A stretch of 64,000 bases of DNA from Fusobacteriota bacterium (lineage in GTDB: Bacteria > Bacillota > TC1): positions 682,001 to 746,000 of the forward strand of contig WTXA01000002.1 in NCBI GenBank assembly GCA_009773805.1, read 5' to 3'. Positions within the stretch are counted from its first letter, which is position 1; every line of letters starts with the position of its first letter. The notes beneath the pieces are model-generated. The model had not been told where the DNA came from. It did no database searches and saw nothing but the letters and a program-made list of their open reading frames with translations. Shown in pieces: positions 28,929 to 64,000 of the stretch. A program made the position numbers and the translations under genes.

Positions 28929-28957
28929 TTTAAAAATAATATTAAGGATATAATAAT

Positions 28958-29998: not shown

Positions 29999-30011
29999 GG
30001 GAGGACACTAA

Positions 30012-30764: not shown

Positions 30765-30878
30765 ATAAATAATTTAATTATTTTGACATATTAATTACTA
30801 TGTTTCTTTAGAATAAAATATGTTAACATAACAATAATAGGATATTTAATTTATATATAATATGGATGGAGGATTTTC

Positions 30879-31304: not shown

Positions 31305-31313
31305 GAGATATAA

Positions 31314-33845: not shown

Positions 33846-33849
33846 TATT

Positions 33850-34002
33850 ATGCAACAAAGTATAGAAAAATATGAACAGATTTTAGAGGATAAAAGAATA
33901 GATGAAGCGATAGCACAAGCTAAAGCTGAATATAATAATGGGGCGAAGTTATTAGATGCAAAAGAGGTGCTTTCTTCTTTAAGGAGAAAGCATTTTAAGT
34001 AA
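33850..34002 (+). CDS. Small antitoxin-like protein
   Basis: A 50-residue reading frame beginning MQQSIEKYEQILEDKRIDEA and ending LLDAKEVLSSLRRKHFK, whose tail resembles the toxin-binding end of RelB/Phd-type antitoxins. ATG 33850 lies 4 bases after the flavoprotein stop and has only a weak ribosome binding site. No toxin gene follows, so this may be an orphan antitoxin or remnant. Confidence 0.5.
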   Translation: MQQSIEKYEQILEDKRIDEAIAQAKAEYNNGAKLLDAKEVLSSLRRKHFK

Positions 34003-34023
34003 AGCAATGGTAAGGAGTAAAAA

Positions 34024-34218
34024 ATGGAATACAAGGATTTTCTAAATAAATTATCAGGTCCAGCAAGAAATGCACTAGAAGATGAGGGGATTGATAGTTT
34101 TGAAGAATTGGCAACACTCAGCAAGAAAGAACTACTAGCAAAACATGGAATAGGCAGGGCTACATTACCGTTAGTTAATGAATGTTTGAATAAAAAGGGA
34201 TTGAAATTAAGAGACTAG
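34024..34218 (+). CDS. Small helix-hairpin-helix (RpoA C-terminal-like) protein
   Basis: A 64-residue protein with the LSGPARNALEDEGIDSFEEL and KHGIGRATLPLVNECL segments of the helix-hairpin-helix domain found in the RNA polymerase alpha subunit C-terminus, so it may bind DNA or RNA polymerase partners. ATG 34024 has TAAGGAG upstream. The proton ATPase gene starts 28 bases later. Confidence 0.75.
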   Translation: MEYKDFLNKLSGPARNALEDEGIDSFEELATLSKKELLAKHGIGRATLPLVNECLNKKGLKLRD

Positions 34219-34246
34219 TTAGGGTTAATAAAGGAGGCTTGAAAAT

Positions 34247-36673: not shown

Positions 36674-36724
36674 ATGTAAGACAAGTATGTAGCCAGATTT
36701 AATTATGGAAAAGGAAGAAAGCAT

Positions 36725-37261
36725 ATGAAAAAAGTAGTTTTATATATCGCCATGAGTCTGGATGGGTATATTGCTGATAAGAATGGTGGCGTATCCTGGC
36801 TAGTTGGTGAGGATAGGGATATTCAACTTAGTAGTTATGATGAATTCATCAAGACGGTTGATACTATAATAATGGGTAATAATTCATATAGTCAGATTAC
36901 AACAGAGCTTTCTCCTGACAAATGGGTTTATGAGGGTATGAAAACTTTTGTGTTAACTCATCGAGATATGATTTCTAATAGAGATGTTGAATTTACTAAA
37001 GAGAATATTGTTGATTTAGTAAATAGGATTAGAGCCAAGGCTTCAAATGAGGGTAAAGATATTTGGCTTTGTGGAGGGTCTGATCTTGTTCATCAGTTTA
37101 TGGAAAAGGACCTTATTGACAGGTATCATGTTACTGTTATCCCTACAATACTAGGTGCTGGTATTAGATTGTTTAAGAAACTTGATCAGCCTCTGTTGTT
37201 GAAACATATTTCTAATAGAGCAATCAATGGTATGGTGGATGTTGTTTATGATAGGAGATAA
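36725..37261 (+). CDS. Dihydrofolate reductase/RibD C-terminal domain protein
   Basis: A 178-residue RibD-C/DHFR-like protein: VVLYIAMSLDGYIADKNGGVSWL, split, an IIMGNNSYSQI strand, WLCGGSDLVHQF and VIPTILGAGIRLF are typical of this common Firmicute family (YyaP/YwjB-like). It binds NADPH in the related enzymes; the substrate here is unknown. It has a clear RBS (GGAAGAAAGC) and ends before a strong terminator. Confidence 0.85.
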   Translation: MKKVVLYIAMSLDGYIADKNGGVSWLVGEDRDIQLSSYDEFIKTVDTIIMGNNSYSQITTELSPDKWVYEGMKTFVLTHRDMISNRDVEFTKENIVDLVNRIRAKASNEGKDIWLCGGSDLVHQFMEKDLIDRYHVTVIPTILGAGIRLFKKLDQPLLLKHISNRAINGMVDVVYDRR

Positions 37262-37300
37262 TGATTTAAAAAGGAATTTAAATAGTAATTATATAATTTG

Positions 37301-37348
37301 ACTTTCATGCACATATACTAATGAATATTGTGCATGAAAGTTTTTTTT
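37301..37348 (+). terminator. Terminator after the RibD-like gene
   Basis: A 13-bp stem ACTTTCATGCACA / TGTGCATGAAAGT with a 15-base loop and eight T. Confidence 0.82.
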
Positions 37349-37366
37349 AATATCTGAAAAGTATTT

Positions 37367-37406
37367 ACAAATATACTTAAATGAAATACAATATAAGTAT
37401 ATTTGT
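37367..37406 (+). promoter_or_regulatory. AbiE operator (13-bp inverted repeat)
   Basis: ACAAATATACTTA (37367-37379) and its perfect complement TAAGTATATTTGT (37394-37406), 14 bases apart, lie 21 bases before abiEi. AbiEi antitoxins are known to autorepress by binding inverted repeats. Confidence 0.75.
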
Positions 37407-37426
37407 ATTATATGGAGGTGAAAAAC

Positions 37427-38020
37427 ATGAAGAATATTGAAAAACTTGAAAAACTCATTAAAGAACAACATGGAACTGTCCTTAGTTCTGATCTTACAAG
37501 ATATGACATCCCGAGAACATACCTTTCGATGATGGTTGCAGAAGGAAAACTTGAAAAGATGAATAGGGGTGTCTATGCTTCAATTGATTCAATAGAAGAT
37601 GAAATGTATGCAATGCAGAGCAAGTATCCAAAACTTATATTCTCTCATGAAACAGCTTTATTCTTACATGGTTTAACTGATAGGACTCCTTATGAATATG
37701 CTGCTACTGTTCCTAGTGGCTATAAAGTAGTAGAAACGTTATCAGAGAGATTTAAAATCTATTATATAAAAAAAGATTTGCATTTATTAGGTTTATGCAA
37801 GGTAAAGTCTTCATTTGGTAATCAGATAATGGCATATAATGTTGAAAGAACAATTTGTGATATTATCAGAAGTAAAAGCAGGATTGATATCCAAATATTT
37901 AATGATGCTTTGAAGAGGTTTGTCAATAAAAAGTCAGTAGACTATACACTATTGATGAAATATGCAAAGGACTTTAAAGTTGAAAAAAAATTAAAAGAAT
38001 ATTTGGAGATATTATTATGA
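37427..38020 (+). CDS. abiEi: AbiEi-type antitoxin (type IV toxin-antitoxin)
   Basis: A 197-residue AbiEi-family antitoxin: the N-terminal wHTH (SSDLTRYDIPRTYLSMMVAEG, KLEKMNRGVYAS) and the C-terminal AbiEi_1 region (FSHETALFLHGLTDRTP, YNVERTICDIIRSKSRID). It neutralises AbiEii indirectly and represses the operon. ATG 37427 has TGGAGGTGA; a longer reading has no RBS. The toxin gene overlaps by 4 bases. Confidence 0.9.
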   Translation: MKNIEKLEKLIKEQHGTVLSSDLTRYDIPRTYLSMMVAEGKLEKMNRGVYASIDSIEDEMYAMQSKYPKLIFSHETALFLHGLTDRTPYEYAATVPSGYKVVETLSERFKIYYIKKDLHLLGLCKVKSSFGNQIMAYNVERTICDIIRSKSRIDIQIFNDALKRFVNKKSVDYTLLMKYAKDFKVEKKLKEYLEILL

Positions 38021-38853
38021 GTGGAAAAGCGATGAGTTTAAAAGCAAAAATTAGAAATTTAGCAAACGAAAAGGATATATCTGCCCAAGTTGTACTTCAA
38101 AATTATATGTTTGAAAGATTTATTGAAAGATTATCAAAATCTGATTACAAAGATAATTTTATATTAAAAGGTGGCATTTTAATTGCATCAATTGTAGGAA
38201 TAGATAAACGTTCTACTATGGATATGGATGCTACAATTAAAAATTATCCATTAGACATTGCATCTTTGTCAAAAGCTGTTAAAGATATATGTGATATTGC
38301 TGTACAAGATAATGTAAAGTTTGAATATATAGGCATTGAACCTATTAGAAAAGATGATGCTTATGGTGGTTTTCGAGTGAGTTTACAAGGTGCTTATGAC
38401 ACAATATTAACACCTTTGCAGATTGACATGACAACTGGTGATGAAATTACGCCAAAAGAGATTTTATATATTTACAAAAAAATTATAAATAATGAAACTA
38501 TTGATGTCTGGGCTTATAATATTGAAACTGTCCTTGCAGAAAAAGTAGAATCAATTTTGAACAGAGGAGAACTCAATACTAGACCTAGAGATTTCTATGA
38601 TGTCTATATACTTTCTAAAACTCAAGAATTTGATACTATGCTCTTTATAAAAGCTTTAAGAAATACAGCAGAACATAGAAAAACAACTCATATTTTTGAA
38701 AATATAAAGAATAGGATTAAAAAAATTGAAAACAGTAAATCATTGGAATTATTATGGATAAAATATACGAGAAATTACCGATATGCAAAGGATATAGCGT
38801 ATAGCAATGTAATTGAGTCGCTAAAATTGTTGATTTTCCAAGAAGATATGTGA
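38017..38853 (+). CDS. abiEii: AbiEii/AbiGii nucleotidyltransferase toxin
   Basis: A 278-residue AbiEii toxin of the DNA polymerase-beta-like nucleotidyltransferase fold. LKGGILIASIVGIDKRSTMDMDA holds the conserved GG (52-53) and acidic D69/D71 pair, the metal site, described here by positions. Such toxins transfer nucleotides to RNA, in characterised cases the tRNA acceptor end, causing growth arrest. It overlaps abiEi by 4 bases (ATGA). With its antitoxin and operator it looks intact and active. Confidence 0.92.
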   Translation: MSGKAMSLKAKIRNLANEKDISAQVVLQNYMFERFIERLSKSDYKDNFILKGGILIASIVGIDKRSTMDMDATIKNYPLDIASLSKAVKDICDIAVQDNVKFEYIGIEPIRKDDAYGGFRVSLQGAYDTILTPLQIDMTTGDEITPKEILYIYKKIINNETIDVWAYNIETVLAEKVESILNRGELNTRPRDFYDVYILSKTQEFDTMLFIKALRNTAEHRKTTHIFENIKNRIKKIENSKSLELLWIKYTRNYRYAKDIAYSNVIESLKLLIFQEDM

Positions 38854-51398: not shown

Positions 51399-52133
51399 TT
51401 ACTCTCTAAAATACCTGTTTCTAAGAGTAATAAGCTCACCAATTTCAGGATTAAAATAAACCTCGTTATAGGATAGCTTCTCATCGGCAACACTATAAAA
51501 TATCTGCTTCCATACTAGTATGGCCGAAGGAAGAGGTAGACCAAAAAGTTTAGCTAATCTTTCATCACATAAGTATGGAGAATAATTTGACAAGGAGTGA
51601 GAAGTCTCCTGATGACAATATTCCCATAAAAAATCATCAATATTCATCGTAGGAAGATCTATTGGAATATCTCTTTTAAATATATTTAAAGGAATACGGT
51701 TATAGGCGACAATAGCCAACTTCCCATCAGCTAAATAATGCCAGATAGCATTGAAAACCTTATCCCCAATATTTATCCCTAATTTATTTGCAACAACTTC
51801 ATCAGCCTCTTCAATCAAGTGGCCTTTAGGTATATACTCAGCCTTATAACCACTTTGTTTCAACATTTCAGTAAAATTATTAACTAAATCAATTCTCATT
51901 CTTGGATCAAGAGCACTAGGATGAACAAAATTGCCAGAACCATGTTTCTTAGTTATGAAACCCTCCATGGCCAACATAAGCAAGGATTCTCGCAATGTAA
52001 CAAGACTAACCCCAAGTCTGGATGAAAGTATAGACTCTGAAGGCAATTTATTATTTGGAAAATTTTCTCTTCTGAAAATTTCCAATAATCTTTTTTTTAC
52101 ACCTGAGTAAGTTGAATAATTAATTTTTCCCAT
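51399..52133 (-). CDS. GntR family regulator with UTRA domain (first copy)
   Basis: A 244-residue GntR/HutC-type regulator: winged helix at 1-70 (NKLPSESILSSRLGVSLVTLRE, GFITKKHGSGNFVHP) and an effector-binding UTRA domain from about 90 (FTEMLKQSGYKAEYI, WHYLADGKLAIVAYNRIP). It lies downstream of the molybdenum hydroxylase genes on the same strand but separated by a terminator, so it is transcribed separately. It and the second GntR (55127-55846) probably sense a metabolite of the neighbouring catabolic locus. Confidence 0.9.
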   Translation of the reverse strand: MGKINYSTYSGVKKRLLEIFRRENFPNNKLPSESILSSRLGVSLVTLRESLLMLAMEGFITKKHGSGNFVHPSALDPRMRIDLVNNFTEMLKQSGYKAEYIPKGHLIEEADEVVANKLGINIGDKVFNAIWHYLADGKLAIVAYNRIPLNIFKRDIPIDLPTMNIDDFLWEYCHQETSHSLSNYSPYLCDERLAKLFGLPLPSAILVWKQIFYSVADEKLSYNEVYFNPEIGELITLRNRYFRE

Positions 52134-52238: not shown

Positions 52239-54494
52239 TTATTTCTTTAAAAGCGACAGAACTCTTTCTGGTTTGGCAGGATATTGTTGTACTGGTTTAC
52301 CGATAGCATTACTAACAGCATTTAATACAGCTGATGCTACTGGGACAATAGCTGCTTCACCAATTGATTTAGCACCGTATGGACCACCATATTCGCCTTC
52401 TTCAATAAAGCCTGTCTTGATTTTAGGCATTTCATTAGCATGCAGTATATGATAGGTACTGAAACTATCTGAGGTTACCTTACCATTTTCATCAAAGGTA
52501 ATATCTTCACAAAGTGCATAACCAATTCCTTGCTGAATACCACCGTGAAGTTGGCCTTCTAAAATCATAGGGTTGATTGCCCTACCAACATCATGAACAG
52601 CAACATAATCTAAAATCTTAACTTCACCAGTTTTAGTGTCAACCAATACTTCGGCAAAATGTGCTCCATATGAACCTGGAAGAGCAACAGAGGCATAAGT
52701 GCAAGTTTCAATAAAGTCTTCTTGATGTTTATCGTGAACAAAACTGATCAAGTCAACATACTTGACAGGTGGACAATTTATTTGATCTGTAGAAATTTCC
52801 TTATTTCCAAAAATCAAGGTATCTTCCTTGACTCTTAAATATTCTGCAGCATATTTTGTCAGGCGTTGTTTCATTTGCAGGGCAACTTTGTAGGCTGCAC
52901 CACCTTCAACAAACAAACCTCTGCTGGCACTTTCTCCGTTGGACCAGCCAGCGACGTCAGTATTACCATGGATTGAACGAACATCGTCAACCTCGAGACC
53001 TAATATCTCGGCAACTATTTGTTTCAGGGAAATAATAGCTCCACTTCCCATTTCATGAGAACAAACATTTAATAAAGCTGTTCCGTCTTCATTTAATCTT
53101 AAAGTAGCAGCAGTCATATCACGTCCGACACCAAAGACACCATTACCATGACAAGCAACACTCATGCCCTTACCATAAAGATACCGTCCGTTTTCCCTTA
53201 CTTCGTTAAGTGGTTTATTGTTCCAGTCGAACATTTCCATGCCTTTTTGCATAGCATCTTTAGGACGAGCATTACCTAAGGATTTTTTACTTCTTTGTTC
53301 TATATCATCTGGACCTACAAGGTTTTTTTCATAAAATTTTGTTATATCCATATTCAAGTCCTTGGCAATCTCATTATATTGTGCGCAAATCGCGCCAAAT
53401 AACTGAGGAGAACCATAGCCTCTCATAGCTCCACCACTTGGGGTATTGGTATATATTGATGCTCCTTTGAATTTCATGTTGGGACATTTGAGCATCTTGT
53501 AGTATTTTGCTGACATGGCACCAAGAATGATAGGACCTCCACAAGTAGCATAGGAGCCAGTGTTAGTTATCATATCCATGGCTTGAGCCATAATATTACC
53601 TTCTTTATCTACACCTATTTTGACTGTAGCTTTTGCACCTTGTCTGGTACAAGTACCGACGATGGTTTCACTACGATTATAGCCTAGAGTTACTGGTCTA
53701 CCGGCTCTCATAGATAAAAGAACAGGTACTCCTATATTATTATAGTCTGTTTTAGCACCGAAACCACCTCCAAGTGCTGGTGTAATGCTTTTAATCATCT
53801 GTAATGGAATATTAAAAATATCAGAGGTGATAATTTTGTGGGCAATACTGTTTTGATCTGGTGCCCAGACTGTCAATAAACCATCTGGTTCATATGAAGC
53901 GCTTACCACATGATTTTCCATCATTGCATGATGGATAGCCGGAAAGCGATATGTTCCTTCATAAACTTTGTAACTATTTTTAAAAGCCTCATCAGCATCA
54001 CCTGTATTAGACTCCATTTTGAATTGTAAGTTATGGTTTCCGTTGATATCAGGTGCGCCAGGTTTCATGGCTTCATCTATAGTAAATACTGCAGGCAACA
54101 CCTCATATTCAACTTTTATTAGTTTAACTGCTTCTTCAGCTATTTCAACTGTTTCGGCAGCGACGGCGGCAACTCTGTCTCCTACATATCTAACTATAGG
54201 AGGAAAAAGATATTCATCTTCAAGTGCTTTATGACCAATAAACTTCTTCTGGCTATTGAAAGCCACTTGAGGAGTATTATGTGTATGAGTAACAACTAAA
54301 ACTCCTGGCAATGCTTCAGCCTCAGAAGTATCGACACTGATTACTCTAGCATGTGCGTGGGGTGAAAACAGCATTTTTGCATGTAGTCCTCTTGGATGCT
54401 TGATATCAGCTGTATAGATCATTGCTCCAGTTACTTTTAAGGCTGCATCTTGTATTGGAAATGATTTTCCAATTTGATTAAAATTATCTTTCAT
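52239..54494 (-). CDS. Molybdopterin-binding large subunit of an aldehyde oxidoreductase/xanthine dehydrogenase family enzyme
   Basis: A 751-residue Mo hydroxylase large subunit. KVTGAMIYTADIKHP at the N-terminus, ALGGGFGAKTD, RGYGSPQ, GVGRDMTAATLRL and the conserved glutamate in the C-terminal SIGEAAIVPVASA are the family's molybdopterin and active-site motifs. It is followed directly by the 2Fe-2S small subunit. No FAD subunit gene is in the operon, as in Desulfovibrio aldehyde oxidoreductase, so it may oxidise aldehydes and pass electrons to another carrier. The exact substrate is unknown. Confidence 0.9.
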   Translation of the reverse strand: MKDNFNQIGKSFPIQDAALKVTGAMIYTADIKHPRGLHAKMLFSPHAHARVISVDTSEAEALPGVLVVTHTHNTPQVAFNSQKKFIGHKALEDEYLFPPIVRYVGDRVAAVAAETVEIAEEAVKLIKVEYEVLPAVFTIDEAMKPGAPDINGNHNLQFKMESNTGDADEAFKNSYKVYEGTYRFPAIHHAMMENHVVSASYEPDGLLTVWAPDQNSIAHKIITSDIFNIPLQMIKSITPALGGGFGAKTDYNNIGVPVLLSMRAGRPVTLGYNRSETIVGTCTRQGAKATVKIGVDKEGNIMAQAMDMITNTGSYATCGGPIILGAMSAKYYKMLKCPNMKFKGASIYTNTPSGGAMRGYGSPQLFGAICAQYNEIAKDLNMDITKFYEKNLVGPDDIEQRSKKSLGNARPKDAMQKGMEMFDWNNKPLNEVRENGRYLYGKGMSVACHGNGVFGVGRDMTAATLRLNEDGTALLNVCSHEMGSGAIISLKQIVAEILGLEVDDVRSIHGNTDVAGWSNGESASRGLFVEGGAAYKVALQMKQRLTKYAAEYLRVKEDTLIFGNKEISTDQINCPPVKYVDLISFVHDKHQEDFIETCTYASVALPGSYGAHFAEVLVDTKTGEVKILDYVAVHDVGRAINPMILEGQLHGGIQQGIGYALCEDITFDENGKVTSDSFSTYHILHANEMPKIKTGFIEEGEYGGPYGAKSIGEAAIVPVASAVLNAVSNAIGKPVQQYPAKPERVLSLLKK

Positions 54495-54965
54495 TTAGGA
54501 TTCCTCCAGTTTTTTTGTAGCAAGCTGTATAGCTTCAACTATTTTTACATAACCTGTACAACGGCATAGGTTATTATCCAGGCCATCACGTATTTCTTGT
54601 TCTGTAGGGTGAGGATTCTGATCCAACAGAGATTTTGCTGTTATGACCATACCTGGTGTACAATAGCCACACTGTACTGCACCTGCTTCAATAAAAGCGC
54701 TTTGGATTGGGTGAAGTTCTGTGCCTTTGCTTAAACCTTCTACTGTAGTTACAGTTCTGTCTTGAACTTTCATAATATTTGTTGTGCAAGAATTTACTGC
54801 TTTTCCATCTAATAAAACCTTACAAGCTCCACAATCTCCAGCTTCACAACCTGGCTTGGCGCCTGTTAAGTCTAATTTCTCCCTCAAAACTTTTAATAGT
54901 GTCCAATTTCTTTCTACTGCCAATTCTACTTTCTTATCATTAACGATGAATGATACTAATTCCAT
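54495..54965 (-). CDS. 2Fe-2S small subunit of the molybdenum hydroxylase
   Basis: A 156-residue CoxS/XdhC-type iron-sulfur subunit. The plant-type 2Fe-2S centre is C40-C45-C48-C60, and the second centre is C99-C102-C134-C136 (QCGYCTP, NNLCRCTGY). It lies one base before the large subunit gene. Start ATG 54965 has AAAGGACGTG upstream, and two tandem ATGACT copies sit at 54993-55008 in the promoter region. Confidence 0.93.
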   Translation of the reverse strand: MELVSFIVNDKKVELAVERNWTLLKVLREKLDLTGAKPGCEAGDCGACKVLLDGKAVNSCTTNIMKVQDRTVTTVEGLSKGTELHPIQSAFIEAGAVQCGYCTPGMVITAKSLLDQNPHPTEQEIRDGLDNNLCRCTGYVKIVEAIQLATKKLEES

Positions 54966-54992
54966 AAAATCACGTCCTTTCTTTAACTCATT

Positions 54993-55008
54993 ATATGACT
55001 ATATGACT
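54993..55008. repeat. Tandem ATATGACT repeats upstream of the Mo hydroxylase operon
   Basis: Two adjacent copies of ATATGACT. The half-site ATGACT recurs as an inverted pair upstream of the FGGY kinase (55988-56002), suggesting a common regulator. Confidence 0.45.
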
Positions 55009-55044
55009 TATTCTGCAATAGTTTAATTTAAAAAAGTTGGAAAT

Positions 55045-55080
55045 ATATAAAAAAAGTAACCAACTATATAGTTGGTTACT
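55045..55080 (-). terminator. Terminator after the second GntR gene
   Basis: A perfect 26-bp palindrome (55055-55080, half AGTAACCAACTAT) followed on the reverse strand by seven T. Confidence 0.85.
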
Positions 55081-55126
55081 CATTTATCCAATATATTTCA
55101 TAATATGTTGCTCATTTATTTAGCTA

Positions 55127-55846
55127 TTAAAATGCTTTAAAATCCTTACGGACCATTTTTAACTTAAAAATTTCTGGATTAAAGCGAATCTTAGTTATAC
55201 AAACTAATCTATCATCCTGATCATGGATATATTCATCCCAGGTATTAATTGGTGTATTTGGTGGGATAGAAAACAATTCCGCCGTACTATCATCAATAAT
55301 TTCAGGAATAAATTCAACAATTGAATGAAGACTATAAACACCATAAGTAGCCAGAAAATTAAATAAATCCTTGTCTAACTTCATATCAAGACTTAAGTCA
55401 TTAGGGAACAGTCTATGAGGAATATAAATATTATGGAAACAGGCAACTTTATCGTCACCTTTAATAATCTCATCATAAACATAATAATCTTCTTCAGGAC
55501 AATGAGGAAAAGTCCTTGATTCAACTCTTAAGTTAGAGAACTCAATACTAGTCTTGTAGTCTGCTTGTTCAAGAATCTTGAAAAAGTTCATATTTGCATC
55601 TATCCTGAACTTTGTATCAACAACACTATTAAGGATTACATTACCATGACCATGTCTTCTACTAATATATGATAGAGATGCTAACTCAGCTAAGGCTTCC
55701 CTGACTGTATGTTTACTAGTACCAAGTATTTCAGATAAATTTTCTTCTGATGGAAGAGTAGAAGCAGGAAAATCTTTTTTGTGTATCCTGTCTAATATTG
55801 CTCCAGCCACCTTCTTGTATAAAGGTGGATTCTTTAAAACCTTCAT
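55127..55846 (-). CDS. GntR family regulator with UTRA domain (second copy)
   Basis: A 239-residue GntR/HutC regulator related to the one at 51399. Winged helix about 1-70 (STLPSEENLSEILGTSKHTV, SYISRRHGHGNVI); UTRA domain about 85-235. It is divergent from the FGGY kinase operon, with a perfect 10-bp inverted repeat (55886-55909) in the shared region, the likely operator. It probably controls the 56-63 kb operon. Confidence 0.9.
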   Translation of the reverse strand: MKVLKNPPLYKKVAGAILDRIHKKDFPASTLPSEENLSEILGTSKHTVREALAELASLSYISRRHGHGNVILNSVVDTKFRIDANMNFFKILEQADYKTSIEFSNLRVESRTFPHCPEEDYYVYDEIIKGDDKVACFHNIYIPHRLFPNDLSLDMKLDKDLFNFLATYGVYSLHSIVEFIPEIIDDSTAELFSIPPNTPINTWDEYIHDQDDRLVCITKIRFNPEIFKLKMVRKDFKAF

Positions 55847-55885
55847 TTATAACTCCTATTATTCCTAGTTTTTTAATTATTTGCT

Positions 55886-55909
55886 TATTATGTGTAACAA
55901 CACATAATA
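55886..55909. promoter_or_regulatory. GntR operator candidate
   Basis: TATTATGTGT-AACA-ACACATAATA, a perfect 10-bp inverted repeat with a TGT/ACA core characteristic of GntR-family sites, 40 bases upstream of the divergent GntR gene. Confidence 0.7.
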
Positions 55910-55943
55910 TACCATATGTTGAAGTAAAAAACTACAAATTATA

Positions 55944-55972
55944 TTGACTAAATAGGTCTTTAACCTTATAAT
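55944..55972 (+). promoter_or_regulatory. Sigma-A promoter of the kinase operon
   Basis: TTGACT (55944-55949), a 17-bp spacer and a perfect TATAAT (55967-55972). Initiation would be near 55979. Confidence 0.85.
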
Positions 55973-55987
55973 TAACCGAAGTCGTAC

Positions 55988-56002
55988 AGTCATTGGATGA
56001 CT
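55988..56002. promoter_or_regulatory. AGTCAT-TGG-ATGACT operator just downstream of the promoter
   Basis: A short inverted repeat at about +10 to +24 of the kinase transcript. ATGACT also occurs twice before the Mo hydroxylase operon. Confidence 0.45.
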
Positions 56003-56023
56003 AATAAAAATAGAGGTGAGATT

Positions 56024-57508
56024 ATGTACCTAGCACTTGATGTTGGCACAACAATTGCCAAAGCAGTATTATTCAACAAAAATGGAGAAGAACTACTAGT
56101 AGCAGAAAAACCACTAGACACTATAATAAGGCAAAAAGACTATTATGAACAAGATCCAGAACAAATAAAAGAAACAATCTATGAAGTATTAAAGGAACAC
56201 TTTACCAGCAAATGGGGAAGTGAGATAAAAGCAATTATCCTTTCAACCCAAGGTGGAGCAATCATACCAATTGATGAGAATGGGAAGGAAATATACCCCT
56301 TCATTTCTTGGTTGGACAATCGAGCTGGGGAACAAATGGAATATATGAAAAAAGATGGAACAGCTAAAATCGTCAGAGAAAAAAGCGGCTGGTGGCCACA
56401 AATAGGTCTGCCTTTCGTTACATTATCTTGGTTAAGAGATAATGAACCTGAAGTTTTTAAGGGAACTGACAAGTTTTTATCGCTTAATGACTATCTAGGC
56501 TTTGTTTTAACAGGAAATTGTGTAACTAATCTATCCTGTGCTGGTGAAGTACTATTAGCTAATAGCGTAGAAGCTGACTGGGATGATGATCTATGTAGAA
56601 TACTAGGTATTAGGAAGGATCAGTTATCAGTCATTAAGGAAGCTGAAGCAGTGGTAGGTCATTTAACTGAGTCAGTAGCTGCAAGAATTGGGGCAACTGT
56701 TGATATTCCTGTAATTAATGGTGGACAAGATCACACACTAGAAGCGCTGGCTGTTGGTATCAATGGTAAAGGAAAAAGTATGTTAGCTTGTGGTACAGCC
56801 TGGGTTATCAACTGTGCAACAGATAGTGGTGAACTTAAGAACATACCTATCAATATGGATTTAAACTTTCATATATTAAAAAACAAATGGGTTATCTCCC
56901 AATACTTAGGAAGCTTTGGAGGTAATTTTGAATGGTGGATGAATAATTTCTGGCAGGATTGTGATGGGAAGACTGAAAGAAAGCTGATGTTTTCTAAAAT
57001 GAATGAAGCTGTAGATAATACTAAATTCGATAAGTCACTAATCTACTTGCCATACAGTGGCGGTAGACAACTTGATGGAGTAAGAGAGTTTGGAAATTTC
57101 CTTAATTCTGATACAGGTCATAGTAGAGCAGATTTTACACGTGCCATGATGGAAGGTTCAGCCTTTGAAGTACGTTGGGCTCTTGATAAGTTAGAAGAAT
57201 ATGGAATAGTTGTAGATGAACTATGGATGATAGGTGGAACTGCAAAAAGTGAAGCATGGACTCAGATTATATCTGATGTACTGGGGGTTAAGGTCTATAA
57301 GAGTAACTATTCACACGGACCAGCACTTGGGGCTGCCTTAATAGGCGGTGTGAGTCTTGGTGATTACCCAAACTATGAAGAAGCTAGAAAAGTATTTACC
57401 ATTAAAGGAACTATTGTAGAACCTAATATGGATATGAAAGAAAAATATGATATTAAGTTTGAAAAAATATTTAAAGATAGTTTGATAAGGGAAAGAGAGG
57501 AAGTTTAG
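56024..57508 (+). CDS. FGGY-family carbohydrate kinase
   Basis: A 494-residue sugar kinase. MYLALDVGTTIAKAVLF is the family's first phosphate motif, GQDHTLEALAVG the second, and IGGTAKSEAWTQIISDVLG (adenosine motif) precedes GAALIGGVS. The family phosphorylates xylulose, glycerol, ribulose, erythritol or, as LsrK, AI-2. ATG 56024 behind GAGGTGAG is preferred. As first gene of the 8-gene operon it likely phosphorylates the entry substrate. Confidence 0.9.
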   Translation: MYLALDVGTTIAKAVLFNKNGEELLVAEKPLDTIIRQKDYYEQDPEQIKETIYEVLKEHFTSKWGSEIKAIILSTQGGAIIPIDENGKEIYPFISWLDNRAGEQMEYMKKDGTAKIVREKSGWWPQIGLPFVTLSWLRDNEPEVFKGTDKFLSLNDYLGFVLTGNCVTNLSCAGEVLLANSVEADWDDDLCRILGIRKDQLSVIKEAEAVVGHLTESVAARIGATVDIPVINGGQDHTLEALAVGINGKGKSMLACGTAWVINCATDSGELKNIPINMDLNFHILKNKWVISQYLGSFGGNFEWWMNNFWQDCDGKTERKLMFSKMNEAVDNTKFDKSLIYLPYSGGRQLDGVREFGNFLNSDTGHSRADFTRAMMEGSAFEVRWALDKLEEYGIVVDELWMIGGTAKSEAWTQIISDVLGVKVYKSNYSHGPALGAALIGGVSLGDYPNYEEARKVFTIKGTIVEPNMDMKEKYDIKFEKIFKDSLIREREEV

Positions 57509-57509
57509 C

Positions 57510-58286
57510 ATGGTAACTAGAAGACTAAGAAAAATATTCAAAGATGATGGAATGGCTTTTGTTGTAGCTTGTGATCATGGAATGATCAATGGACCGATGA
57601 GAGGTATTGGTAATCTTGAAGAAACTTTAAGAGCAGTTATTTCGGCTGAAGTAGATGGTGTAATGGCCACATATGGAACTGTTCGTCAGTTTCCTGAGCT
57701 TTTTGCTAAAACTAACTGGGTTTGTAGGCTCGATGGGGCTGCTAGTTTTCTCTCACCTGTAAGTGCTGTAGGTAGTCAGTTTTTCAATATTGAACAAGCT
57801 TTGATCCTTGGTGCTGAAGCACTCTGTGTTACAGCATTTCCAGGAACAAAGGATGAAGAACATGGTTGGGATACTATGGCTAAGGCAATTTATCAAGGTC
57901 ATAAATGGGGGATTCCAATGATGGCTGAAGTAATGCCAGGCGGTTTTACAGCAGGTCCTGAATTTAGAAATGTTGGCGTAACTAAAACTGCTGCTCGTAT
58001 TGCAGCAGAACTTGGCGCTGACTGGGTTAAAATTCCTTATGTTGAAGGTTATGAAGAGGTTGTTGCTACTTGTCCAGTTCCAGTTGTTGTTCTAGGCGGT
58101 CCTGGTAATGCAGACCCTGCTGTGACCTTAGAAATGGTAGCTAAAGGTCTTAAAGCAGGTTGTAAGGGTGCAACTATAGGCAGGAACATCTGGCAGGCTA
58201 AAGATACCTATATGATGGCAAAGACCGTTAATGATTTAATACATGGAAAGTTGACGCTAGAAGAAGCAATTGCCTTGGTGAAATAG
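57510..58286 (+). CDS. DhnA/LsrF-type class I aldolase
   Basis: A 258-residue TIM-barrel aldolase. VVACDHGMINGP (D22-H23) opens the barrel, VMPGGFTAG and LGADWVKIPYVEG with Schiff-base K174 follow, and VVLGGPGNADP/GATIGRNIW form the phosphate site. Relatives are archaeal fructose-bisphosphate aldolase and LsrF of AI-2 degradation. It starts one base after the kinase stop, so it probably cleaves the kinase product. Confidence 0.9.
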   Translation: MVTRRLRKIFKDDGMAFVVACDHGMINGPMRGIGNLEETLRAVISAEVDGVMATYGTVRQFPELFAKTNWVCRLDGAASFLSPVSAVGSQFFNIEQALILGAEALCVTAFPGTKDEEHGWDTMAKAIYQGHKWGIPMMAEVMPGGFTAGPEFRNVGVTKTAARIAAELGADWVKIPYVEGYEEVVATCPVPVVVLGGPGNADPAVTLEMVAKGLKAGCKGATIGRNIWQAKDTYMMAKTVNDLIHGKLTLEEAIALVK

Positions 58287-59138
58287 ATGCTGGATTTAAA
58301 TAGTGTGAGAGGTATTCTCATAGATATTGACGGGACATTAATGAGGGGTAAGGAATTATTAGATGGGGCATTAGAGTTTCTAGAGTATCTTGATAATGAG
58401 AAAATAACCTACCTTATAGTTTCTAATAATACAAAATCACCTAATAGTTATGTAGACCTATTTAAAGCAAGAGGGGTTTGGATAAGGGAAGAACAAATTC
58501 TAACCTGTACTAGTACCACCAAAAGATATTTGGATAACAATACGTATATTAAAAGTGCCTATGTTATCGGAAAGCCGGATTTGTTTGAAGCTGTGGAAGC
58601 TGCAGGGGTAAGAATACTAGAGGATGCTAGTGGTGTTGATATTGGAGAGGTAGCAGATGCAGTTATAGTTGGTGGAGATTTTGAGCTCAACTATACAAAA
58701 CTAAAGGATGCAGTACTTCATCTTCAAAAGGGAGCAGTACTTATTGGAAGTAACGGGGATATGCTGATTCCCACAGAGGAAGGACTTGTACCTGAAGCAG
58801 GGATGACCTTGGCTGCCCTAGAGGCAGGATCTGGGATTAAACCAATAATCTTAGGTAAACCAGAACCATATTTCTTTAAGTTAGCAGTTGAGAAACTTAG
58901 TGATAAGTGTGAAGATGAGTCCGAATTTGATATTAGGGAATCGATAGTTATGTTAGGTGACCGACTTGATACAGATATATCAGGAGCTGCCAAATATGGA
59001 TTAAAGACCATACTTGTTAAGACTGGTGTTGATGATGAACTAGGGATTGAAGTTAAGAAAATATATCCTGACCTGGTGGTTGAGGATTTAGTAGAATTAA
59101 AAAATATGTGGAGAAGGAGTAAGGAAAATGGAAAATAA
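58287..59138 (+). CDS. HAD-IIA family phosphatase (NagD-like)
   Basis: A 283-residue HAD-IIA protein. The nucleophile motif is IDIDGTLMRG (D13, D15), motif II VSNNTKSP near residue 47, motif III with GKPEPYFF and MLGDRLDTDISGA closes the active site. It follows the aldolase directly and overlaps the SDR gene by 11 bases. It may remove phosphate from an aldolase product or a by-product. Confidence 0.88.
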   Translation: MLDLNSVRGILIDIDGTLMRGKELLDGALEFLEYLDNEKITYLIVSNNTKSPNSYVDLFKARGVWIREEQILTCTSTTKRYLDNNTYIKSAYVIGKPDLFEAVEAAGVRILEDASGVDIGEVADAVIVGGDFELNYTKLKDAVLHLQKGAVLIGSNGDMLIPTEEGLVPEAGMTLAALEAGSGIKPIILGKPEPYFFKLAVEKLSDKCEDESEFDIRESIVMLGDRLDTDISGAAKYGLKTILVKTGVDDELGIEVKKIYPDLVVEDLVELKNMWRRSKENGK

Positions 59139-59892
59139 AGTAGTAATAGTAACAGGTGCAGGAAATGGAATAGGAGCTGCAACTGCTAGAATATATGCAG
59201 CCAATGGCTATAAGGTAGGAGTATTAGATGTTAAAGAAGCAGATGCTCTTAAAGTTGTTGGAGAAATAGTTGCAAGTGGAGGTGTAGCCTTGGCTGTGAC
59301 CTGTGATGTTGGTAACAAAGAAAGTGTAGAAGCTGCAGTAGCGAGAGTTGAAGCGACCTTTGGAGATATTGGTACAGTAGTAAATAATGCCGGAGTTGGT
59401 GGACCTTTTCATAGGGTTGATGAAGTAGAAGATGAGGAATGGGACTGGGTAGTTAATACAAATCAAAAAAGTGTCTTTATGTTTTCACGAATACTACTAC
59501 CAAAGATGAAAGCAGCAGGATTTGGAAGAATAGTTAATGTGGCTTCAATCCAAGGATTCTTAGGTAGCCCATATTCTTCAACCTATGTAGCAACAAAACA
59601 TGCAGTTATCGGCTATACAAGAACAATAGCTGCTGAGTGGGGCCAGTATGGAATTACCTGTAACGCAGTATGTCCTGGTTATGTTATGACTGCAATGGGA
59701 GCCCGTGATGATGAACTAGATGACTATACTAAAAAAGTAATGGCTAAAAGCCCAGTGAAAATATTAGCTAAGCCAGAGGATATTGGAAATTTAATCTACT
59801 ATATTACAGGTGAGCATGGACAATACATTAATGGTTCTATAATTAATATAGATGGTGGCATAACAGCCCATGTTGGGATAATGGAAGTTTAA
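59128..59892 (+). CDS. SDR family oxidoreductase
   Basis: A 254-residue classical SDR (FabG-like). The cofactor loop is VTGAGNGIGAATA (9-20), NNAG near 86-89, and the catalytic triad S140, Y153, K157 is intact. The final GQYINGSIINIDGGITAH is the typical C-terminal motif. Overlap with the HAD gene shows co-transcription. It likely interconverts a hydroxyl and keto group of the pathway substrate with NAD(P). Confidence 0.92.
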   Translation: MENKVVIVTGAGNGIGAATARIYAANGYKVGVLDVKEADALKVVGEIVASGGVALAVTCDVGNKESVEAAVARVEATFGDIGTVVNNAGVGGPFHRVDEVEDEEWDWVVNTNQKSVFMFSRILLPKMKAAGFGRIVNVASIQGFLGSPYSSTYVATKHAVIGYTRTIAAEWGQYGITCNAVCPGYVMTAMGARDDELDDYTKKVMAKSPVKILAKPEDIGNLIYYITGEHGQYINGSIINIDGGITAHVGIMEV

Positions 59893-59920
59893 GTTTACAG
59901 TAGCGGGAGTAGTGAAGTAA

Positions 59921-61078
59921 ATGGATGATCGAGGTAATGTGGTTGGTGCAGGTGCAGATGTAATAGTTATTGGTGCTGGAGTAGTAGGTGGAGCAATTGC
60001 CTACTACTTAAGCAAGATGGGTAAATCTGTAATCATATTAGAACAAGATGAAGTAGCCAGTGGTGCCAGTGGTGGTAATAACGGACAAATCAGTATCATC
60101 GACAGAGAACCTGGTATTGAGTTAGAATGGGCAAATGAGTCTATGAAAATGTATAGGGGGTATGAGGATGCTGGTGAATTCGAAACCGACCTCGATATTA
60201 CAGGAGGCTTAGCTCTTTTCTATAATCAGGAAGAAATTGAAATAGGACGAGAGGTTGTCAAGAAATATTCTGATTTGGGGTACAAATGTTCTATCTTGGT
60301 TGGAGATGAAATAAAGAAACAAGAACCAAATATCAATACTGACGTAGTCATGGGTGCAGCCTATTGTGGCGAAGAAGGAAGATTGAATCCCTTCTCTATA
60401 ACCATTGGACTTGTTGACATGGCAGTAAGTAGAGGTGCCAGACTTTACCAGAATACCAAGGTTATTGATTTTGTTCTTGAAGGTAATTTGATTAAGGAAG
60501 TAGTTACTGATAAAGGCAGCTTTCTTGGAGATACAGTTGTGGTGGCCACTGGTGCTTGGACTAGAGAATTAATGAGTAAGTTAGGACTTGATTATAGGAT
60601 ATTTTATGGAAGAGGGACGCTTATGGTAACTAATCCAATTGAGCCTTGTATCAAAGGTCCGATTGTTCCAGGTTGTTTTGCTATTGGAACCCTTTATGAA
60701 GGGGATTGGAATCTTTTGGGACTAACCCAACATAAAAATGGAACTATAACTATTGGGCAAGATACTAGAGCAGTTACTAATTATAATAAAGGTGTATCCT
60801 ATGATGGTACTATAGGACTGGCAAAGGCATTTGCCAAACACTTTCCAAACCTCAAGGATTTAGATGTTGTGAGAGTATGGTCAGCTGTAACTCCACATGT
60901 TGAAGATTCCTTACCAATTTATGGTTATTCAGGTAAGTATCCAAATATATTTATGGCCGCAGGATTAAAAGGAGCTCTAACAATAGCTCCAGCAGCTGGT
61001 CTTATGGCTGCTAGGATAATTATGGGAGAGACAGATGATAACTTGGTTGCGGATTACTCTCCGACCAGATTTGAATAA
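59921..61078 (+). CDS. FAD-dependent oxidoreductase, DAO type (catalytic subunit of a multi-subunit dehydrogenase)
   Basis: A 385-residue DAO-fold flavoprotein. The FAD motif is VIGAGVVGGAIAYYLSKMG, with SGASGGNNGQI and VVATGAW later, and the C-terminal LPIYGYSGKYPNIFMAAGLK. It resembles HcnC, PDH-beta of archaeal proline dehydrogenases and opine oxidases. With the next three genes (2Fe-2S, NAD/FAD, 4Fe-4S/BFD) it forms a complete electron-transfer chain. The RBS is weak (GGGAG). Confidence 0.88.
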   Translation: MDDRGNVVGAGADVIVIGAGVVGGAIAYYLSKMGKSVIILEQDEVASGASGGNNGQISIIDREPGIELEWANESMKMYRGYEDAGEFETDLDITGGLALFYNQEEIEIGREVVKKYSDLGYKCSILVGDEIKKQEPNINTDVVMGAAYCGEEGRLNPFSITIGLVDMAVSRGARLYQNTKVIDFVLEGNLIKEVVTDKGSFLGDTVVVATGAWTRELMSKLGLDYRIFYGRGTLMVTNPIEPCIKGPIVPGCFAIGTLYEGDWNLLGLTQHKNGTITIGQDTRAVTNYNKGVSYDGTIGLAKAFAKHFPNLKDLDVVRVWSAVTPHVEDSLPIYGYSGKYPNIFMAAGLKGALTIAPAAGLMAARIIMGETDDNLVADYSPTRFE

Positions 61079-61089
61079 AGGAGAGTAGT

Positions 61090-61410
61090 ATGAGAATATT
61101 AAATCACCCGATTTTGGGGGAGTTAAAGGATATGGAGACAGTTACCATCTATTGCGATGGTATGGAGATATTGGCTATAAGAGGAGAGCCTATTGCAGCA
61201 GCCTTACTAGCTGCTGGGATAAGAACTTTTAGAAAAACTGTCAAGACAGGGGAACCAAGAGGTGTCTATTGTGGTATAGGCCAATGTAACGATTGTATTA
61301 TGGAAGTCAATGGAGTACCAAATGTCAGAACCTGTGTTACCTTGGTTGAAGAAGGTATGATCATCAAAACACAAGAGGGACTTGGAAAGAGTGGTGGTTT
61401 GCATGATTAA
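61090..61410 (+). CDS. 2Fe-2S subunit (Fer2_4, HcnA/PdhX-like)
   Basis: A 106-residue 2Fe-2S protein with ligands C61, C66, C69 and C82 in YCGIGQCNDCI and VRTC, a plant-type motif (C-x4-C-x2-C-x12-C). It corresponds to the small electron-carrier subunit of HcnABC/PDH-type dehydrogenases. Its stop overlaps the next gene's start. Confidence 0.9.
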   Translation: MRILNHPILGELKDMETVTIYCDGMEILAIRGEPIAAALLAAGIRTFRKTVKTGEPRGVYCGIGQCNDCIMEVNGVPNVRTCVTLVEEGMIIKTQEGLGKSGGLHD

Positions 61411-62518
61411 TACTGAGCTACTCATAATTGGTGGTGGACCTGCAGGACTAGCAGCAGCTATTGCTGCAGGTAAATATGGGGTTAAAGCTATTGTGGTAGA
61501 TGAAAATCCACTACCTGGTGGCCAACTATTTAAACAAATACATAAGTTTTTTGGCTCGAAGGAACATAAGGCTGGAACTAGAGGGAATATTATTGGACAA
61601 CAGCTTTTAATTGAGGTTGAAAAGGTTGGAGCCCAAGTAATGTTAAATACTAGAGCCTTTGGTATATTTGATGATAATATTGTAGGTATAGTTAGTGGTG
61701 GAAAAAGTGAAAAAGTTGTAGCAAAAAAAATTATACTAGCAACAGGTGCCAGTGAAAACGCCTTGGCCTTTAAAGGGTCAACACTTCCAGGGGTGATGAC
61801 TGCAGGTGCAGCACAGACTTTTATTAATGTACATAGAGTTTTACCTGGTAGACGAGTAATTATGATAGGTACAGGAAATGTGGGGCTAATAACTTCATAT
61901 CAATTAATGCAAGCAGGAGCTGAAGTTGTAGCTGTTGTTGAAGCTGCTCCAAATGTTGGAGGTTATGACGTTCATGCCAATAAGTTAAGAAGAGCTGGAG
62001 TTCCTATCTACTTAGGTCATATTGTAATAGAAGCTTTCGGAGATAGTGAAGTATGTGGTGCTGTAATTGCTCCAGTTGATGAAAAATTTCAACCAGATCT
62101 AACACGTAGTTTTACCATAGAATGTGATACTATTTGCTTTGCAGTAGGTTTGACACCCAGGATTGAACTAGCACAAATGGCTGAAGCTTCAACTACTTTC
62201 ATAGGTGCTTTAGGTGGTCATTTACCGTTACATGATAATAGATTAAAAATTGGTAAAAATATATTTGCTGCTGGTGATATTGCCGGAGTGGAAGAAGCAA
62301 GTACAGCAATGGAAGAAGGTAGACTTGCCGGTGTTGTTGCGGCTATGGATCTAGGTAAATTAAGTGAAGACGATGGCAATGTTGAGATTGAATTAATTAA
62401 TGAAAGACTGTCAAAGTTAAGAAGTGGACAGTTCGGATTGAAGAGAGCGGTTGCCAAGTTGGAAATAATCAAACAATATGATGAGTTGTTAGGGAGGATA
62501 AATAATGGTGAAGAATAG
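61403..62518 (+). CDS. NAD/FAD-binding subunit (HcnB/PdhA-like)
   Basis: A 371-residue pyridine nucleotide-disulfide oxidoreductase-fold subunit. LLIIGGGPAGLAAAIAAGKYG and VIMIGTGNVGLITSYQLM are the FAD and NAD(P) motifs, and FAAGDIAGVEEASTAMEEG the C-terminal FAD site. ATG 61403 (inside the overlap ATGATTAA with the preceding gene) is chosen. It would receive electrons from the DAO subunit and pass them to NAD or a quinone-like carrier. Confidence 0.9.
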   Translation: MINTELLIIGGGPAGLAAAIAAGKYGVKAIVVDENPLPGGQLFKQIHKFFGSKEHKAGTRGNIIGQQLLIEVEKVGAQVMLNTRAFGIFDDNIVGIVSGGKSEKVVAKKIILATGASENALAFKGSTLPGVMTAGAAQTFINVHRVLPGRRVIMIGTGNVGLITSYQLMQAGAEVVAVVEAAPNVGGYDVHANKLRRAGVPIYLGHIVIEAFGDSEVCGAVIAPVDEKFQPDLTRSFTIECDTICFAVGLTPRIELAQMAEASTTFIGALGGHLPLHDNRLKIGKNIFAAGDIAGVEEASTAMEEGRLAGVVAAMDLGKLSEDDGNVEIELINERLSKLRSGQFGLKRAVAKLEIIKQYDELLGRINNGEE

Positions 62519-63227
62519 ATATATTGCTAGAATAAATTGTCTTCAACCAATACCATGTAATCCTTGTGAAACTTCTTGTCCTTTTGGAGCTATATATATA
62601 GGAGAAGATATAACTAATAGACCAATTTTAGATTTGGAAAAATGTAAAGGTTGTGGTATATGTGTAGCCGCTTGTCCAGGTATTGCTATAACTATGGCAA
62701 TGATAACCGGGGATGCTAAGGATTTTGTTTCCATACCTTATGAATACTTACCGCTTCCTTTAGTAGGAGATACAGTTGTCTTAGTAGATACTAACGGCGT
62801 TGATTTAGGTGAGGGTCTGGTGGAGAAACTGAATAGACCAAATAAGAAAGATCCCACTACCCTTGTATATGTATCTGTTGATAATACAATAACGGATAGA
62901 GCAGTTGGTATAAAGAGGAAAGTAGCAAGTATAGTAGATGTTATTGAGGTGGTTAATAGAATAGAGATTGTTGATCCCATAATATGCCGTTGTGAAGAAA
63001 TAAGAGAAAGCGAAATTATTGAGGGTATTAAAAAAGGTGATAGGACTGTAGAGGCAATTAAAAGAAGAACGAGAAGCGGCATGGGTCTTTGTCAGGGTAA
63101 AACTTGTAATCGCTTGATTGCTGGAATAATTGCCAGGGAGTCAGGTATTAGTGTTGGAGAACAAGCTCCATCAAGTAAGAGACCTCCAGTTGGAGTCATT
63201 AGTATCAGGGAGATGAGTGAGGAATAA
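62505..63227 (+). CDS. 4Fe-4S/BFD electron-transfer subunit
   Basis: A 240-residue protein. Two ferredoxin motifs lie at the N-terminus (C18-x2-C21-x3-C25 and C47-x2-C50-x2-C53-x3-C57). The C-terminus has a BFD-type 2Fe-2S region (ICRCEEIRESEI ... GLCQGKTC). Such a subunit appears in PDH-type dehydrogenases (PdhF-like). It overlaps the previous gene by 14 bases and ends the operon. No other gene follows in the same unit. Confidence 0.88.
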   Translation: MVKNRYIARINCLQPIPCNPCETSCPFGAIYIGEDITNRPILDLEKCKGCGICVAACPGIAITMAMITGDAKDFVSIPYEYLPLPLVGDTVVLVDTNGVDLGEGLVEKLNRPNKKDPTTLVYVSVDNTITDRAVGIKRKVASIVDVIEVVNRIEIVDPIICRCEEIRESEIIEGIKKGDRTVEAIKRRTRSGMGLCQGKTCNRLIAGIIARESGISVGEQAPSSKRPPVGVISIREMSEE

Positions 63228-63343
63228 AGAAGTGGAAAAGGTATGCCAAGCATAGTATTTTGATATAATATGATTGGTATTTTTTTTATTTCTATGTATA
63301 ATTAACATAGTTGACTTGTAATTTAGGGGGACAATAAAATAAC

Positions 63344-64000
63344 ATGGAAAATATGTATTTTTTTCAAAAATTAACAATACTTGGATTATTGGGATCATTA
63401 ATAATAATCTTGCTGATTATTTTATATTTTTCAAATAGTGCTAGAGTAAAAGAATCGGAAATTAAAAATAAATATAAAAATTTATTCCTTCATATGAATG
63501 AAGGTTTTGCTTTACATAGGCTAGTTTGTGACGAAACAGGAACTCCGATTGACTATATATTTTTAGATGTTAATAAGGTCTTTGAAAAGTTAACAGGTCT
63601 AAAAAGAGAGAATATTATTGGTAAGAGTGTAAAAGAAGTTTTGCCTGGTACTGAGGATTATTGGATCAAGACTTTTGGTCAAGTTGTTATTGAGGGTAAA
63701 CCAACAACTTATGAGAATTACTCTCATGAGTTATCAAAGCATTTTAAGGTTAGTGTTTATAGCCCAAAACCTATGGAATTTGCTACTTTGTTTTCTGATA
63801 TCACTAATCAGGTAGATACCAGTAAAAAAATCCATCATGAAAAACAACTGTTGATTACCATATTAGATAGTATAAAAGCAGGATACTGGGATATGGATAT
63901 TGTTAATAATACAGCCTTCTATAGCCCTTCATATAAGGCAATGCTAGGCTACGAGGATTTTGAATTAGAAAACAAGCCTGAACTATGGAAGAATCTGATT
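63344..64000 (+). CDS. PAS-domain sensor protein, partial
   Basis: A gene open to the window edge. It begins MENMYFFQKLTILGLLGSLI, a membrane anchor, followed by a PAS domain (LFLHMNEGFALHRLVCDETG, DYIFLDVNKVFEKLTGLKRE, NIIGKSVKEVLPG) and the start of a second (GYWDMDIVNNTAFYSPSYKAML), described in pieces. ATG 63344 follows AGGGGG at 13 bases; ATG 63353 is also possible. The output domain lies outside the window, so histidine kinase, GGDEF or HD-GYP cannot be told apart. Confidence 0.75.
   Translation, partial: MENMYFFQKLTILGLLGSLIIILLIILYFSNSARVKESEIKNKYKNLFLHMNEGFALHRLVCDETGTPIDYIFLDVNKVFEKLTGLKRENIIGKSVKEVLPGTEDYWIKTFGQVVIEGKPTTYENYSHELSKHFKVSVYSPKPMEFATLFSDITNQVDTSKKIHHEKQLLITILDSIKAGYWDMDIVNNTAFYSPSYKAMLGYEDFELENKPELWKNLI

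Follow-up and report, generated by a model that had tools for sequence, protein, structure and literature searches.

The 64,000-nucleotide stretch of DNA analysed here (the window; G000:C2:682001-746000, with G000 the 1.68-Mb Bacillota genome under study) carries a four-gene set at 59921-63227. In our preferred reading, these genes encode a heteromeric flavo-iron-sulfur dehydrogenase for amine C-N oxidation, which forms the distal half of an operator-controlled operon and shares its regulation with a Mo-hydroxylase and the sugar module of that operon. We regard this reading, taken whole, as evenly balanced between right and wrong. The four products would assemble into one complex, whose DAO-family subunit would act on a secondary or cyclic amine (imino acid or reduced N-heterocycle) by oxidising its C-N bond. 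The FMN/FAD and 2Fe-2S centres, which belong to the alpha and gamma subunits, would pass the electrons to the last subunit, with its BFD-type 2Fe-2S centre and two 4Fe-4S centres, and from there they would reach a ferredoxin-like acceptor. In G000, the complex would be expressed as the downstream half of an operon from one promoter, the start region of which is covered by the operator.

The four dehydrogenase genes

All four open reading frames (ORFs) are intact and lie on the forward strand, according to the ORF list and Pfam. The first (59921-61078, 385 aa) encodes the DAO-family catalytic (beta) subunit (PF01266, 199.4 bits), and the second (61090-61410, 106 aa) encodes the 2Fe-2S (gamma) subunit (Fer2_4, 102.2 bits). 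These are followed by the FAD/dinucleotide-binding (alpha) subunit, which has a SoxA/PDH-alpha core (61382-62518, 378 aa; Pyr_redox_2, 110.7 bits), and a fourth subunit of Fer4+BFD type (62505-63227, 240 aa; Fer2_BFD 41.6 bits, Fer4_7 32.7 bits). The genes are tightly packed: 11 bp separate the DAO gene from the next, and the two junctions after that overlap by 29 and 14 bp. The alpha-subunit gene probably starts at ATG 61403, which would shorten its overlap with the gamma gene to 8 bp. The first-pass annotation had named these four subunit types in this order, as overlapping or near-contiguous genes, and the intact ORFs confirm it. The same order recurs in three sibling genomes (G003, G004, and G005) with DAO identities of 73-77%, so chance juxtaposition of the four genes is ruled out.

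Motif definitions for opine, D-hydroxyproline, and L-proline dehydrogenase complexes were taken from PMC4575208, and the subunits were tested against them. The DAO subunit has its FAD motif, GAGVVG, at residue 18, and its RVW at 318-320 matches the Arg-X-Trp given there for PDH1, opine, and D-hydroxyproline enzymes, making it a putative FMN site. The gamma subunit carries CGIGQCNDC-X12-C (C-X4-C-X2-C-X12-C), in agreement with the C-X4-C-X2-C-X11-12-C given there, and the alpha subunit has two GxGxxG motifs (GGGPAG at 17 and GTGNVG at 163). The second 2Fe-2S motif, C-X-C-X15-20-C-X4-C by the same definitions, was not found in the alpha subunit. It is instead located in the fourth subunit, in a C-terminal BFD form with a spacing of 32 (CXC-X32-C-X4-C), alongside two 4Fe-4S motifs, C-X5-C-X2-C-X3-CP and C-X2-C-X2-C-X3-CP. 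The C-X5-C of the first of these is unusual in itself.

This family motif set was found in all four sets of genes (the window, G003, G004, and G005). The split between subunits is unusual, as the BFD domain is fused with two 4Fe-4S motifs. Since the second 2Fe-2S motif sits in the fourth subunit, we claim only that the enzyme works like PDH1 and the opine enzymes as a variant of them. The proposed likeness to dye-linked proline and opine dehydrogenases thus stands, except for this one displaced and differently spaced motif, and the suggestion that electrons leave through the two 4Fe-4S sites is plausible.

By sequence, the solved chain closest to the DAO subunit is PDH1 beta (1y56_B, E 1.3e-31). 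Its predicted structure (mean pLDDT 91.0) has glycine oxidase 7cyx as its best Foldseek match and L-proline dehydrogenase 1y56_B as its second, i.e., the top matches of the model are amine-oxidising enzymes. For the alpha subunit, the nearest solved chains are sarcosine oxidase alpha and PDH1 alpha (1y56_A). DAO residues R318 and K350 are invariant in 17/17 aligned DAOs, and Lys350 aligns with glycine-oxidase Arg329. Two other assignments were rejected: GlpABC (TIGR03377 for GlpA, 68.6 bits vs a cut-off of 552.8) and heterotetrameric sarcosine oxidase (TIGR01373 for soxB, 98.1 vs 529.45; TIGR01372 for soxA, 155 vs 1164). None of the four subunits reached an NCBIfam cut-off among the matches listed.

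Hydrogen cyanide synthase (HcnABC), which oxidises glycine to HCN, consists of DAO, 2Fe-2S, and FAD subunits, three in all and with no 4Fe-4S known; the complex here has four subunits, and a glycine substrate is not indicated. PDH1 of Pyrococcus and Thermococcus (1y56) shares with the complex of the window the DAO beta subunit, an alpha subunit of FAD/ADP fold, the FMN Arg-X-Trp, and 2Fe-2S plus ferredoxin-like parts. However, the alpha subunit here has no fused N-terminal 2Fe-2S part, which is a separate gene, the BFD domain and two 4Fe-4S motifs form their own subunit, and the operon is shared with kinase and aldolase genes. The flavin-containing opine/D-hydroxyproline dehydrogenase OdhB-C-A (PMC4575208) has the same beta-gamma-alpha order, overlapping genes, gamma cysteine motif, GxGxxG, and Arg-X-Trp. 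There, OdhA itself bears the BFD-type motif, and three subunits are described with no 4Fe-4S reported; here, BFD and 4Fe-4S are on a fourth subunit, where the BFD cysteines are spaced by 32 residues instead of 15-20.

Operator, sugar module and sibling loci

The dehydrogenase genes follow the kinase and aldolase genes, as had been stated, and two genes that had gone unnamed, for a HAD-IIA phosphatase and a short-chain dehydrogenase (SDR), also lie upstream on the same strand. The module begins with an FGGY carbohydrate kinase (KIN; 55997-57508, +), which is XylB-like at a score below the equivalog cut-off. Because an operator at 55980-56002 covers position 55997, the KIN start is probably ATG 56024, which gives 494 aa, the length of its orthologues. 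Xylulokinase was rejected as a name for it (TIGR01312, 239.1 bits vs a cut-off of 380.25). Next come a DhnA-type class I aldolase (ALD; DeoC/LacD in Pfam; 57510-58286, +), the HAD-IIA phosphatase (58287-59138, +; subfamily cut-off passed), and the SDR (59128-59892, +). The nearest relatives of ALD are MJ0400, LsrF, and archaeal FBP aldolase; its Lys174 aligns with their lysine, and the DHG motifs are also kept. The module resembles the LsrK/LsrF (AI-2) pair and archaeal DhnA aldolases in that an FGGY kinase adjoins a DhnA-type aldolase with its catalytic lysine kept. It differs from LsrK/LsrF-type pairs in scoring under the equivalog cut-offs, in having no transporter in the operon, and in its SDR and HAD partners.

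Upstream of KIN is a sigma-70 type promoter (TTGACT-17-TATAAT, 55944-55972, +), which is the best of 40 scanned matches in 54900-63500. Eight nucleotides past its -10 box begins the operator-like sequence, a 23-bp inverted repeat, AGTCGT-N11-ATGACT, which includes a direct repeat, AGTCGT-N2-AGTCAT. The only terminator-like match on the operon strand in 55900-63227 is weak and lies within the ALD gene. Divergent from the operon is a GntR/UTRA regulator gene, GntR2 (55127-55846, -). Beyond it are two Mo-hydroxylase genes: the 2Fe-2S small subunit, MoS (54495-54965, -; family assigned by reading the sequence, 48% identical to the FeS subunit adjoining a Mo-hydroxylase at locus L039), and the large subunit, MoL (52239-54494, -). 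MoL is XdhA-like (best of 13 models; 539 bits against NF043082, whose cut-off of 780 is not reached), and no gene for an FAD subunit is adjacent to the pair in the window. A second GntR/UTRA gene, GntR1 (51399-52133, -), adjoins them. The MoS promoter contains a direct-repeat operator, AGTCATATAGTCAT (54995-55008, -), between its -35 (55018-55013) and -10 (54995-54990) boxes.

The inverted-repeat pattern AGTCRT-N11-AYGACT was derived by comparing upstream regions, with its degenerate letters picked after the sites had been seen. Exact genome-wide searches found six sites in five genomes, five of which lie in promoters belonging to the system: those of KIN in G000 and G005, of KIN and DAO in G004, and of DAO in G003. 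The remaining site, in G002, lies within a permease ORF and is probably due to chance. Markov resampling, using a form that fixes ATGACT, gave 0/3000 results as good in each of the five KIN/DAO regions. Exact copies of the direct repeat (AGTCRT-N2-AGTCAT) occur three times in G000 (KIN, MoS promoter, and C1:494254), twice in G005 (KIN and MoS), and once in G004 (KIN), with no exact site in G002 or G003; resampling at the MoS promoters of G000 and G005 again gave 0/3000 each. Site C1:494254 (L076) is near a gene that resembles, by eye, a glycine reductase component B subunit, which is probably coincidence.

The loci of the sibling genomes differ in arrangement. For REARRANGEMENT between siblings, the G005 locus is the same as the window. 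In G004, KIN-ALD-HAD-SDR with GntR2 and the four-subunit complex are on separate contigs, and the complex is accompanied by a GntR2 paralogue of its own. In G003 the complex is present, but a search at 1e-50 gave no match to ALD: at its syntenic module locus, GntR2 (81%) is directly followed by a histidine-kinase-like gene, none of the four module genes is seen, and a promoter remnant can be read by eye in the sequence. G003 has thus kept GntR2, and its operator is at DAO only. In both G003 and G004, the complex lies between AsnB-like and RibD_C-like genes, beyond which come genes for an amidohydrolase and for an ABC substrate-binding protein of Bmp type; the same AsnB-like/RibD_C-like/amidohydrolase/Bmp cluster exists in G000 and G005 without the complex. 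The complex has therefore moved as a block between two loci. Neither G002 (79% complete) nor G001 has a DAO match at 1e-40.

The proposed link between the kinase and aldolase genes and the dehydrogenase is supported both by operon order and by an operator common to the two sets in siblings where they are apart. GntR2 is likely the operator-binding repressor. From the shared sites we infer that one regulator family controls the sugar module, the dehydrogenase complex, and the Mo-hydroxylase, which probably form one regulon. All three would answer to one signal, because the same operator stands at the MoS promoter and at the displaced DAO operon. If true, a single regulon that joins the PDH1-like dehydrogenase to the Mo-hydroxylase and the kinase/aldolase module would make the operator and its GntR regulator a defined handle for physiological study of an uncultured Bacillota order, and operator searches in relatives could reveal the inducer and, through it, the substrate.

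The sibling loci also bear on the substrate. The first-pass annotation had favoured an alpha-hydroxy acid or phosphorylated polyol over a proline-like compound because of the sugar operon. In a scheme of this kind, the SDR would make a ketose, the kinase would phosphorylate it, the aldolase would cleave it, the Mo-enzyme would oxidise the resulting aldehyde, and the DAO complex would oxidise a hydroxy acid (e.g., glycolate). The complex and module do form one operon in G000 and G005, in G004 the same operator stands before each of them, and the top-scoring model for the HAD protein is phosphoglycolate phosphatase, under its cut-off. However, G003 keeps the complex, operator, and regulator without the module, so the dehydrogenase is not dependent on it. 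The complex of G003 and G004 sits in a transporter/amidohydrolase/RibD_C-like cluster, and one complex of the sister DAO clade adjoins a PutP-family symporter. Furthermore, the module occurs in G006 and G007 without an adjacent DAO complex, and the best MoL model is XdhA-like rather than aldehyde-oxidase-like. We therefore consider a sugar-pathway step unlikely, and the context favours an amine or N-heterocycle substrate.

Several results weigh against our preferred reading of a co-regulated amine dehydrogenase. All NCBIfam amine-oxidase equivalogs score below their cut-offs. A threonine aligns with the carboxylate-binding Arg302 of glycine oxidase, so the pocket for an ordinary amino acid is not conserved. 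The operator common to the DAO and KIN promoters may derive from duplication of the GntR2-promoter block. Exact sites of a reversed inverted-repeat control number two in G000 and one in G003 (zero in the other three genomes), and the direct repeat at one mismatch occurs 16 times in G000 vs 17 for its reversed control. Allowing one mismatch in the direct repeat genome-wide, or two in the inverted repeat within the window, gives no excess over background, so only the exact promoter sites count.

Close ALD relatives (E 1e-50 or better) occur in 9/398 sampled Bacillota genomes; a plasmid search with ALD gave remote relatives only, all below 60% identity. The order GntR2-KIN-ALD is conserved in G004, G005, G006, and G007, with HAD next in G004 and G005 and SDR in all four. 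A RibD_C-like gene lies directly 3' of the SDR in G006 and G007, and the upstream-region comparison shows no full inverted repeat in their KIN promoters. The locus is bordered in G000, G004, and G005 by a 767-aa protein (its start at window 63344-64000; L111:2344-4647), the G005 orthologue of which is a PAS/GGDEF/HD-domain protein; G003 has an ORF of similar length at that place. In the G000 block after the histidine-kinase-like gene, beyond the window, no pathway was recognised by reading, the RibD_C-like gene excepted.

Relatives of the complex and the linked MCH cluster

Relatives of the DAO subunit are found at 1e-40 in 8/10 genomes of the order and at 1e-60 in 9/398 genomes of the phylum. 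In a tree of 22 DAOs, the genus clade is sister to a G006-G009 clade (support 92/92), followed by a clade linked to MCH genes. At L042, in the sister clade, the whole complex stands directly after a PutP symporter (TIGR02121, 687.6 bits, above the cut-off of 515.5). The Arg-X-Trp of its DAO is RSW in the motif test, and its 2Fe-2S gene, located by motif, overlaps an ORF. This arrangement bears on whether the enzyme is a dehydrogenase of proline, hydroxyproline, or a related imino acid in an amino acid fermenter, with the sugar genes as unrelated neighbours. ORFs of 490-491 aa lie in L041 and L043 at the place that PutP takes in L042, the one locus scanned of the three, and the closest solved chain being PDH1 beta fits as well. 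However, no PutP, proline racemase, or P5C enzyme adjoins the genus g1 copies (neighbours scanned in part). The operator common to the kinase and Mo-hydroxylase genes also argues against a chance neighbourhood, leaving us to rate this explanation as quite improbable.

The third long DAO-family gene of G000 is in the window at 3370-4566 (168 bits). A paralogous DAO complex, seen at L048:9067-12214 (G000:C2, about 51-54 kb) and at L047, has split 4Fe-4S and BFD genes and belongs to a different DAO clade at 28-30% identity.

Elsewhere, DAOs adjoin MCH in G007, G008, G009, and G083. For example, the G008 cluster (L046:6588-18063) contains GntR, MeTr-like, MCH, and DAO genes, three amidohydrolases, an ECF transporter, an M20 peptidase, and an ECF S component. 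Similar clusters are at L038, L044, L045, and L054 (compared by similarity; only L038 was scanned, in part). At L039, a DAO gene adjoins Bmp transporter genes and a three-gene Mo-hydroxylase.

As a special case of our preferred reading, the amine could be a reduced pterin or similar N-heterocycle, with the complex reoxidising or transforming a ring intermediate of an MCH/RibD_C-like/amidohydrolase pathway. The place of the complex in G003 and G004, where it parts the RibD_C-like gene from AsnB, points this way, as do the MCH-adjoining DAOs and the XdhA-like Mo-enzyme under the same operator. But the evidence is genome context, and the MCH-linked DAOs are only 31-40% identical and form a separate clade, so this more specific substrate seems distinctly unlikely to us.

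The linked cluster is on contig 4 of G000, in the order RibD_C-like, amidohydrolase, Bmp ABC transporter, lipoate ligase-like, GntR, SDR, MCH, E1 alpha, E1 beta, E2, MCH. The two MCH-like genes thus flank a lipoate-dependent E1 alpha, E1 beta, and E2 (G000:C4, about 23770-38540; L127 and L128). The G000 MCH aligns over its full length with archaeal MCH (267.5 bits). Members of the RibD_C-like family (about 320-340 aa) include L111:4706-5719 (G000, just past the window), L128:2582-3541, and L156:8599-9573; a structure model was poor (mean pLDDT 44.3) and not used.

MCH (PF02289) occurs in 22/299 genomes, and the RibD_C-like family, often adjoining an amidohydrolase, occurs at 1e-20 in 11/299, with both searches apparently drawn from the same 299 genomes. 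The two are found together in 10 genomes, and RibD_C-like occurs without MCH only in G004 (76% complete). This gives a Fisher p of 5e-12, which is uncorrected for relatedness, 9 of the 11 genomes being from one order. G158, from another family, has MoL-GntR1-E2-E1b-E1a-MCH-unknown-RibD_C-like-amidohydrolase-ECF in a row (labels by best similarity). Homology thus ties the Mo-hydroxylase and GntR1 of the window to the MCH/E1-E2/RibD_C-like system. A complete methanopterin C1 route that includes MCH is not supported: RFAP synthase scores over its cut-off in 0/10 genomes of the order, FTR is in 2/10 (G006 and G008, neither in genus g1), and FTHFS is in 10/10.

We propose, tentatively and with considerable doubt, that the operon belongs, as one branch, to an undescribed anaerobic pathway for the import and degradation of an N-heterocycle that resembles a pterin or nucleoside and bears a polyol side chain. 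The ring would be handled by the amidohydrolase and RibD_C-like reductase, the MCH homologues, the XdhA-like Mo-enzyme, and the four-subunit dehydrogenase, and the side chain by the kinase, aldolase, SDR, and HAD enzymes. The lipoate-dependent E1/E2 complex would deliver an acyl-CoA. The wider cluster (MCH, lipoate-dependent E1/E2, amidohydrolase, and RibD_C-like) is a more novel lead than the dehydrogenase, and literature searches turned up neither the operon nor the MCH-E1/E2 cluster. Its MCH homologues occur in genomes without detectable RFAP synthase, and the cluster would allow a test of whether such proteins act outside known methanopterin C1 metabolism. In G001, from the other genus of the family, the same transporter/RibD_C-like/amidohydrolase/MCH cluster (L154:2942-9921, G001:C1) is present as short broken ORFs, which suggests that it is decaying.

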